Source of the DNA: Leeia oryzae DSM 17879 | GTDB taxonomy: Bacteria > Pseudomonadota > Gammaproteobacteria > Burkholderiales > Leeiaceae | Reading direction: 5' to 3' | Length of the DNA: 64,000 nucleotides | Assembly (NCBI RefSeq): GCF_000376945.1 | Contig: NZ_AQXU01000024.1 | Span: 124,001 to 188,000, forward strand | Shown here: one piece after another, positions 53,565 through 55,145 of the stretch | Layout of the letters: every line of letters starts with the position of its first letter | Position numbering within the stretch: the stretch's first letter is position 1 | Notes under the pieces: generated by a model | Told to the model about the DNA's origin: nothing | Database searches by the model: none | What the model saw: only the letters and a program-made list of their open reading frames with translations | Program-made: the position numbers and the translations under genes

Positions 53565-53583
53565 TCGCTTGTCAGGTAATGAC

Positions 53584-53647: not shown

Positions 53648-55009
53648 TTAGTCTACCTGGCTGCGTTTCAGGCGGCGCTGCCGCACGCCCTCTGCCAGAG
53701 TTGCCAGCAGGGACTCGCTGTCCTCCCAGCCAATGCAGGCATCGGTCACGCTTTGACCATAGGTCAGCGGGTGGCCTGGTTTCAGATCCTGACGTCCTTC
53801 GCACAAGTGGCTTTCTACCATCACCCCGAAAATGCGGTCGTCGCCATTGCTGATCTGGCCTGCAACATCCTGACAGACTTCCATCTGCTTCTGATATTGC
53901 TTGCTGCTGTTAGCGTGGGAGAAGTCGATCATCACCTTTTGCGCCAGGCCGGATGTACTTAACTGCTGGCAGGCAGCATCAATGCTGGCCGCATCATAGT
54001 TAGGCGTTTTGCCGCCGCGCAGGATGACGTGACAGTCCTCATTGCCCAAGGTAGAGACGATGGCAGAATGCCCTGCCTTGGTCACAGACAGGAAGTGGTG
54101 CGGTGCATTGGCGGCCTTGATGGCATCCACGGCAATGCGCAAGTTGCCGTCGGTACCATTTTTAAAGCCTACCGGGCAAGACAGACCGCTGGCCAGCTCG
54201 CGATGCACCTGGCTTTCTGTCGTCCGCGCACCAATGGCACCCCAGCTGATCAGGTCAGACAGGTATTGCGGGGTAATCATGTCCAGATATTCGGTAGATG
54301 CTGGCATGCCGGCATCGTTGATGTCCAGCAACAGCTTGCGGGCAAGACGGATGCCTTCGTTAATGCGATAGCTGCCGTCCAGCATCGGGTCATTGATCAG
54401 ACCTTTCCAGCCAACGGTGGTACGCGGTTTCTCAAAATACACCCGCATCACGATCAGCAAGTCCTGGCTGTATTTTTCTTTCTGCGCAACCAGACGGGTG
54501 GCGTATTCCATGGCTGCATCGTAGTCATGAATCGAGCAAGGGCCGATGATGACCAGCAGACGGTCGTCTGCACCGTGCAGGATGCGGTGAATATCTTGCC
54601 GGGTTTCATGGGTAATGTTGGCCGCATGGTCAGAAATCGGGTATTCGCGCAGCACATGCGAAGGGGGTGCCAGCTCCTTGATCTCTTTAATCCGGGTATC
54701 GTCTGTTTTCACGGTAGATTTTGAGTGCGTCATGTGGTTGCTTCCCGTCAATGTATATGGTGCGTGGTTATCAGCCAGATCATGCAGCCGGTCCATCCAG
54801 AATGGGGCCAGATTGCAGGCCTGTTCGATTTTTCTGGATAACTCATCCCCCAGGTTGCGTCTGCCTGTGGGCGTATCATTTAGCAGGCGGGAAACATAAG
54901 ACGCCTGGTTAATGCCGGCCGCTTTGGCAAAGTCAACCTGACGACCGTTATAACGGTGCGTGATCAGGTAATGAAGATTGTTTCTTCTGATGTCATGGAT
55001 ACTAGGCAT
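53648..55009 (-). CDS. aroG: DAHP synthase (AroG type) with N-terminal Cro/CI-type helix-turn-helix domain
   Basis: One uninterrupted 453-residue frame. Residues ~1-85 form an XRE/CI-like DNA-binding domain: IHDIRRNNLHYLITHRY, HTH region RQVDFAKAAGINQASYVSRL, then RKIEQACNLAPFWMDRLHD. From M93 it is a class I DAHP synthase, first enzyme of the shikimate pathway: LLVIIGPCSIHDYDAAMEYA, RVYFEKPRTTVGWKG, NDPMLDGSYRINEGI, GARTTESQVHRELASGL and MVESHLCEGRQDL. M93 (54733) has GGGAAG seven bases upstream, so a 361-residue free enzyme could be made as well. Two TTACC-N5-GGTAA dyads lie upstream. A regulator-enzyme fusion is unusual; read-through of an ancestral separate regulator is the alternative origin. 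Confidence 0.88.
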   Translation of the reverse strand: MPSIHDIRRNNLHYLITHRYNGRQVDFAKAAGINQASYVSRLLNDTPTGRRNLGDELSRKIEQACNLAPFWMDRLHDLADNHAPYTLTGSNHMTHSKSTVKTDDTRIKEIKELAPPSHVLREYPISDHAANITHETRQDIHRILHGADDRLLVIIGPCSIHDYDAAMEYATRLVAQKEKYSQDLLIVMRVYFEKPRTTVGWKGLINDPMLDGSYRINEGIRLARKLLLDINDAGMPASTEYLDMITPQYLSDLISWGAIGARTTESQVHRELASGLSCPVGFKNGTDGNLRIAVDAIKAANAPHHFLSVTKAGHSAIVSTLGNEDCHVILRGGKTPNYDAASIDAACQQLSTSGLAQKVMIDFSHANSSKQYQKQMEVCQDVAGQISNGDDRIFGVMVESHLCEGRQDLKPGHPLTYGQSVTDACIGWEDSESLLATLAEGVRQRRLKRSQVD

Positions 55010-55029
55010 GGAATGATTAAATCATAAAT

Positions 55030-55044
55030 TTACCTGTTTGGTAA
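55030..55044. promoter_or_regulatory. Operator-like dyad 1 upstream of HTH-aroG
   Basis: TTACC-TGTTT-GGTAA. On the minus strand its TTACCA could serve as -35 with TTTAAT (55021-55016) 17 bases downstream, which would put transcription start at or near the ATG, so a bound protein would block the promoter and the mRNA might be nearly leaderless. Confidence 0.5.
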
Positions 55045-55070
55045 TCTTTTTTGAAAGAGAATTTTTGCAG

Positions 55071-55113
55071 TACATCCATAAAAATTACCATTAAGGTAAT
55101 TTTTATGGATGTA
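55071..55113. promoter_or_regulatory. Operator-like long palindrome upstream of HTH-aroG
   Basis: Perfect 19-base arms (TACATCCATAAAAATTACC and complement) around ATTAA. The core TTACC-N5-GGTAA (55085-55099) repeats dyad 1, with centres 55 bases apart, about five helical turns. No T run follows on the minus strand, so it looks like an operator more than a terminator. Confidence 0.55.
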
Positions 55114-55145
55114 AAAAAGCCACCCTGTGCAAATCGGGTGGCTTT
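55114..55145 (-). terminator. Terminator after hemN
   Basis: Stem AAAGCCACCC (55116-55125) with GGGTGGCTTT (55136-55145), ten-base loop; on the minus strand it ends in a T6 run. It lies 18 bases after the hemN stop. Confidence 0.85.

Follow-up and report, generated by a model that had tools for sequence, protein, structure and literature searches.

A phage repressor-type DNA-binding head on an AroG-type DAHP synthase of Leeia oryzae, with paired putative operators at its own promoter

DAHP synthase controls entry into aromatic biosynthesis, and in the regulation known so far its allosteric and transcriptional control are separate. In a 64,000-nucleotide stretch of the Leeia oryzae genome (hereafter the window), a gene on the minus strand raises the question of whether these two layers can be joined in a single protein. 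We address (i) whether a helix-turn-helix (HTH) domain and a DAHP synthase truly share one frame; (ii) where such a head could have come from and whether the palindromic dyads upstream belong to it; and (iii) whether similar heads are found on other enzymes.

The first-pass annotation of the locus had claimed a single frame that joins an HTH to an AroG-type enzyme, and this holds: the open reading frame (53648-55009, minus strand) begins with the ATG at 55009, ends with the stop at 53648 and comprises 453 codons without an internal stop, and the 453-residue fusion is kept in two congeners (G001, 79% identity; G002, 86%). The HTH occupies residues 1 to about 73 (54791-55009, minus strand), residues 74-92 (54734-54790, minus strand) form a variable linker that is open and in frame in all three species, and the AroG-type DAHP synthase part extends from an internal ATG (54731-54733) to the stop (53648-54733, minus strand). 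Residues 100-446 match the NCBIfam AroG model NF006723 at 620.4 bits (cut-off 568), a full-length match above cut-off that places the enzyme part within the AroG equivalog, and E. coli AroG (PDB 1n8f, residues 4-349) aligns to it ungapped with an offset of +97. DAHP_synth_1 was the only Pfam family above cut-off in the fusion; in particular, the scan found no C-terminal S24 peptidase domain above cut-off. All five E. coli AroG positions named as feedback-resistance positions in a passage of PMC11843938 (76, 146, 150, 175 and 180) are identical in the fusion; in the passage used, AroF and AroG have each other's inhibitors when compared with a second passage in that paper. Judged by its sequence, the enzyme part is a type I-alpha AroG DAHP synthase with predicted activity and predicted feedback control by phenylalanine. 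Further residues that we take to belong to the phenylalanine site (6, 7, 151, 179, 209, 211 and 221, E. coli numbering) are likewise identical, and the equivalents of C61, H268, E302 and D326, presumably the metal ligands of AroG, are present.

The internal ATG had been described as having a good ribosome site. The ATG is indeed in frame and is conserved in all three species of the genus, but its Shine-Dalgarno sequence, GGGAAG here and, by eye, GGGA and GGA in the congeners, is only moderate, so that the description was somewhat generous. Dual starts, yielding fused and free forms of the enzyme, are possible. A second DAHP synthase, without a head, is encoded elsewhere in the same genome (C18, 48% identity); control of the fused one therefore need not starve the cell.

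The N-terminus is matched by the PHROGs family phrog_5736, annotated as 'transcriptional regulator' (E 1.2e-12), and by PDB 5d50, 'Repressor' (E 5.4e-7, improving to 7.6e-11 with a ten-sequence profile, A3). Consistent with this, an AlphaFold model of residues 1-92, built with viral relatives, reached a pLDDT of 78, and Foldseek returned 5d50 as its top match (E 3.2e-4, TM 0.71). Pfam HTH_3 (PF01381) scored 13.7 bits in the fusion, below its gathering cut-off of 23, and the HTH alone gave no match in NCBIfam. A model of the whole fusion, folded without an alignment, had a pLDDT of 37.7 and was set aside. On the strength of sequence matches, the predicted fold and a low nonsynonymous divergence (see below), the N-terminus is a phage CI/Rep-type repressor HTH. 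We take 5d50 to be the Rep repressor of the Salmonella temperate phage SPC32H; a part of PMC9986798 names 5d4z for SPC32H Rep. A single-sequence search of the window's own genome returned no other HTH match better than E 0.07.

Our sample of the genus consists of the window species and two other genomes (G001 and G002), and the fusion is full-length and free of stops in all three. GC content of the three genes ranges from 46 to 62%, and pS across all regions and species pairs lies between 0.585 and 0.87, that is, synonymous sites are at or near saturation. Against a pS of 0.68-0.86, pN of the HTH is 0.15-0.27; the corresponding pN values are 0.35-0.59 for the linker and 0.05-0.10 for the enzyme. 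Outside the genus the picture differs. AroG-like matches were obtained in 44 of 60 genomes searched, but only the three genus members match from residue 1; in other genera no match starts before residue 56, and some of those that start earliest contain a stop. A search with the HTH profile of 1.5 kb on either side of 27 AroG loci from other genera (L006-L032), taking frames of 40 residues or more, found no such HTH, fused or separate, and over loci L001-L047 the profile detected nothing beyond the three fusions and a single repressor, in G002. The check on relatives proposed in the first-pass annotation thus has a divided outcome: the HTH is fused in all three species of the genus but absent at the 27 AroG loci elsewhere. 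Since AroG relatives outside the genus lack it, the fusion looks genus-specific on these sequence comparisons. The G002 repressor (C6; L035/L092) is an S24 repressor with a related HTH, possibly a cross-talk partner or a relative of the donor.

Two TTACC-N5-GGTAA dyads had been noted upstream of the gene, and both are exact. The putative proximal operator O1 (55030-55044) overlaps the likely -35 box, the putative distal operator O2 (55085-55099) lies 55 bp upstream of it, and each is conserved in all three species. These are the only exact copies in the window; with one mismatch allowed, four sites were found versus 0.95 expected, a number reached in one of 100 shuffles. Two perfect dyads precede the gene in every species of the genus, with a spacing of 55 bp here and 56 bp in both congeners, and their half-sites are invariant, with spacers and flanks changed. 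In the 170 bp upstream of the three genes there are six sites, where shuffled sequence averages 0.01 sites of at least 9/10 per set of three. Genome-wide, exact sites number 8, 5 and 10 in the three genomes and reversed-pattern controls are higher (14, 7 and 23), so we rejected the idea that the exact dyad marks a regulon across the genome. Two exact sites close together occur only at the fusion promoter in each genome. Because the totals are below the controls and the close pair is found only here, the pair looks, as far as site counts can tell, dedicated to its own gene. The six other exact sites in the window's genome are inside open frames (four of at least 328 residues, two of 104 and 106), and one exact site of G002 lies outside any frame of 80 residues (L059).

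With the combined profile A3, HTH relatives were detected in 29 viral contigs; scans of genome contigs with the HTH, and of viral contigs with the AroG-type HTH alone, confirmed no relative. Pfam Peptidase_S24 is present in all eight HTH relatives scanned, from viral contigs and cellular genomes, the remaining relatives being called S24 by eye or by frame length. To compare their operators, we took 102 HTH starts that differ within their first 60 residues, together with the 170 bp upstream of each, and applied the pattern TTA[CGT]C-Nx-G[ACG]TAA. Genes of the KSFGEKK type have N4 dyads in six of nine cases and N5 dyads in none, and all six are exactly TTACC-N4-GGTAA. Conversely, RNLGD-type genes have N5 dyads in 11 of 16 cases and N4 dyads in none; the dyads of these 11 S24 genes read TTAGC or TTATC, never TTACC. 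The 36 genes in neither class include six with N4 and two with N5. The AroG heads are of the RNLG type and have N5 dyads in three of three cases, with TTACC half-sites; TTACC-N5-GGTAA thus joins the half-site of one subtype to the spacer of the other, a combination not seen before a phage repressor. Spacer length tracks HTH subtype (N5 with RNLGD-type, N4 with KSFGEKK-type), a correlation that is not an independent trial, because the subtypes were drawn up with the sequences already in view and the genes are related to one another.

The positions of the dyads relative to the start are also similar. Most N5 genes have them at -34 and at -83 or -84 (L169 at -40 and -90), the exact N4 dyads lie at -67 to -75, several with weaker sites near -34, and the HTH-AroG dyads are found at -35 and at -90 to -92. 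The S24 relatives of the HTH are therefore preceded, at comparable distances, by same-class dyads (TTACC-N4 or TTAGC/TTATC-N5), and since, in addition, spacer length follows subtype, the gene looks like an aroG with a captured head. The simplest reading is that a phage repressor head, comprising promoter, operators and HTH, was joined to aroG; its exact donor was not found among the relatives compared.

By eye, the proximal dyad supplies a likely -35 hexamer, TTACCA (55039-55044, minus strand), which is separated by a 17-bp spacer from a probable -10 hexamer, TTTAAT (55016-55021, minus strand), with TGA before it and six bases between it and the ATG. In G001 the -10 hexamer is TGTAAT, at 18 bp; the six-base gap to the ATG and the overlap of the proximal dyad with the likely -35 region are common to all three species. 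A strict consensus scan found no promoter upstream of the fusion; TTTAAT lacks the usual A at position 2, which such a scan demands. Using -10 scoring weights that were not fitted, we determined that a six-base gap gives the best mean score for the three AroG genes and likewise for the nine N4-type relatives, six of which have GATAAT or GACAAT six bases before the start, but only the second best score, after a gap of 16, for the 16 N5-type relatives. A gap this short suggests that the fusion mRNA may be leaderless, as lambda cI mRNA is.

O2 forms the inner portion of a long hairpin (55072-55112, minus strand; arms of 18 bp), which is probably terminator-like and stands behind hemN. The outer arms differ between the species and still pair (z -9.3, -8.3 and -7.3), and the invariant core matches the proximal dyad. 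As O2 lies within this hairpin, part of the conservation of the distal dyad may stem from the terminator. A GC-rich hairpin with a T-run (about 55119-55142) was observed in the window species, and none was seen in the promoter stretches of the congeners. The sequence TCAGGTAATGA, which contains the GGTAA half-site, has three exact copies around and inside the gene, at 53572, 54964 and 55147; with one mismatch allowed there are four matches, a number reached in none of 100 shuffles, and the congener loci, L004 and L005, have no copy. In 12 loci (three of the genus and nine HTH-RibBA), no Rfam family reached its gathering score, and hence no known riboswitch was seen upstream.

A related head occurs on a second enzyme, RibBA, the first enzyme of riboflavin (vitamin B2) synthesis. 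Among 399 genomes of the order, 21 matched the HTH profile: three with AroG fusions, seven with in-frame RibBA fusions, one with an HTH linked to RibBA out of frame, and ten further genomes with S24-like or short proteins. In a Neisseria-like family, 55 of 83 genomes have some HTH match; a related HTH is in frame with RibBA in 37 of the 83 (L094-L123, L152-L161), out of frame in two and on an S24 repressor in one (L151). A further four genomes of the family, from another genus (L147-L150), have RibBA in frame behind a phage-type HTH that is more distant (MNRIDQL...). None of these four genes has TTACC dyads upstream, which suggests a separate fusion event; their heads are likely, from sequence, an independent fusion, and in the Neisseria-like family RibBA apparently captured a head twice, with different heads. 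The two HTH-RibBA fusions that were scanned contain Pfam DHBP_synthase and GTP_cyclohydro2 and exceed the cut-off of the equivalog NF010626; the others were called RibBA from motifs common to the translations. Several HTH-RibBA loci have the uptake-type word GCCGTCTGAA upstream, which we take to suggest Neisseria or relatives. One such HTH, from a cellular HTH-RibBA gene, is also encoded, unchanged, on viral contig L171.

Of 34 distinct RibBA promoters (including two from out-of-frame loci), 32 contain an N4 site of at least 8/10 and 22 contain two or more, versus a mean of 0.07 promoters with two N4 sites after shuffling. At a threshold of at least 9/10, N4 sites were found in 16 of the 34 and N5 sites in none. 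Dyads exact to the pattern are present in three promoters, the others being imperfect, and N5 sites at 8/10, found in 22 of 34, coincide for the most part, among the matches listed, with N4 sites extended by one base. In L076, the likely promoter reads TTGCCT, 17 bp, TACAAT, and the proximal site lies across its -35 box. We examined 46 HTH-RibBA and HTH-AroG loci, of which 39 could be parsed, 37 in frame and two not; the in-frame linkers have 11 different lengths, ranging from 39 to 75 nt, and the seven unparsed loci have continuous frames. In the two HTH-RibBA genomes with the head out of frame the enzyme remains, and the fused form is thus dispensable there.

Wider searches for enzyme fusions covered the class and the phylum. 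In 369 genomes of the class, all 23 HTH matches were S24-like or short by eye, except the window's own fusion, and in 398 genomes of the phylum, where frame length was the sole criterion, the frames longer than 400 residues were those of the AroG fusions of the window and G001 and of the RibBA fusion of G045. A 393-residue frame in G132, considered as a candidate enzyme fusion, was rejected; by eye it resembles an S24 repressor whose frame stays open further upstream. With regard to the usual regulators, TrpR (PF01371) was not found in the window's genome, and the TyrR-type HTH PF18024 has four matches there, three of them over cut-off, so that a TyrR-like protein may be encoded.

The proposal that the enzyme represses its own gene gains comparative support from the conserved operators, the same-class operators of phage repressors and the similar plan of the RibBA loci. 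With a probability of roughly 0.7, we suggest that a phage CI-type head replaces a separate repressor and that the fused enzyme negatively autoregulates its own promoter. The HTH would bind the two TTACC-N5-GGTAA operators, and, as the proximal one covers the -35 region, the bound head would block transcription. AroG enzymes are tetramers, and the oligomeric AroG part could for this reason stand in for the C-terminal oligomerisation domain of a phage repressor; in PMC9638917, the SPC32H Rep repressor is described as tetrameric when it binds DNA. Phenylalanine bound at the AroG feedback site might alter the head, as co-repressor or inducer. Conservation of the five feedback-resistance positions makes such sensing plausible, and Asp6 and Asp7, presumably residues of the phenylalanine site, stand only about ten residues behind the internal Met and could relay an effect to the head; we put this step at slightly under even odds. 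More tentative still is the generalisation that the phage lysogeny head (repressor promoter, twin operators and HTH) serves bacteria as a portable cassette for autoregulation, attached on more than one occasion to committed biosynthetic enzymes, in which the enzyme oligomer replaces the C-terminal domain and the allosteric ligand sets DNA binding.

The spacing of the two dyads, 55-56 bp, is no whole number of helical turns, which counts against self-repression. Instead of repressing, the HTH could activate through the distal site, as at a lambda PRM-type promoter, or both sites could loop to tune output; phage relatives do have multi-site operator regions that include distal sites, and an AroG tetramer would allow a bivalent head. 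The proximal dyad, however, overlaps the likely -35 in all three species, a position for repression, and we regard activation or looping as unlikely. A different concern is that the HTH might be a read-through relic, with free AroG made from the internal ATG doing the work and the fused form being non-regulatory. Such a relic would fit the conserved internal ATG with its moderate Shine-Dalgarno sequence, as well as the two HTH-RibBA genomes that keep the enzyme frame open with the head out of frame, but it sits poorly with an HTH that is constrained at near-saturated synonymous divergence, with linkers of 11 lengths that stay in frame and with the conservation of the operators; it is, in our view, quite unlikely.

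Finally, the dyads might serve another regulator, for example a separate phage-type repressor, with the fusion HTH acting elsewhere or in folding or assembly of the enzyme. G002 does encode such an S24 repressor with a related HTH, and the exact TTACC-N5-GGTAA dyad was not seen before any RNLGD-type phage repressor. Yet the window's genome offers no second HTH match better than the E value given above, paired sites are confined to the fusion promoter in all three genomes, and the spacer length of a dyad goes with the HTH subtype encoded downstream of it, which together make this assignment very unlikely.

If the fused enzyme does repress its own promoter, control by allostery and by transcription would be joined in a single protein that apparently targets its own promoter, and feedback inhibition and gene repression would be read out by one molecule. 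It would show an enzyme becoming a transcription factor in a single fusion, the related RibBA head would point to a general route from phage repressors to metabolic regulators, and the system offers a switch that can be tested for a response to phenylalanine or flavins. For annotation, the start sites called for RibBA in Neisseria-like genomes may conceal a DNA-binding head. Among the matches listed, the titles and abstract beginnings of the open-access literature contained no description of a phage-repressor head on a DAHP synthase or RibBA.

How does the fusion relate to known systems? Its HTH has its closest solved structure in the 5d50 Rep repressor, and its gene shares the class and approximate position of its dyads with S24 phage repressors; these proteins have a C-terminal oligomerisation or S24 domain where the fusion has a metabolic enzyme. 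Within the AroG/AroF/AroH group, the enzyme part is an AroG equivalog with feedback-site residues. Some DAHP synthases are fused to chorismate mutase or ACT domains, which act on catalysis, and we know of no extra domain of a DAHP synthase that binds DNA. HTH-RibBA resembles HTH-AroG in having a related N-terminal HTH, in frame, with TTACC-type dyads upstream, but differs in enzyme and pathway, in its N4 rather than N5 dyads, mostly imperfect, and in a likely -10 hexamer about 31 bases before the HTH start rather than six.

Enzymes that repress genes of their own pathway are already known: PMC6978683 names PutA and BirA as enzymes that are also direct transcriptional repressors, each in one protein. 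PutA is like the fusion in that a pathway enzyme is itself the direct repressor, in its case of its own put operon. It is catabolic and binds DNA through an N-terminal ribbon-helix-helix domain, whereas in the fusion the enzyme opens a biosynthetic pathway and the head is a phage-repressor HTH. BirA similarly unites biotin ligase and bio operon repressor; its HTH head is of another kind, and its control is by end product. In the trigger-enzyme sense, the fusion likewise has a DNA-binding domain and an enzyme on one conserved chain, in all three species of the genus; BirA, however, regulates the bio operon and not chiefly its own gene, whereas it is the fusion's own gene that carries the putative operators.
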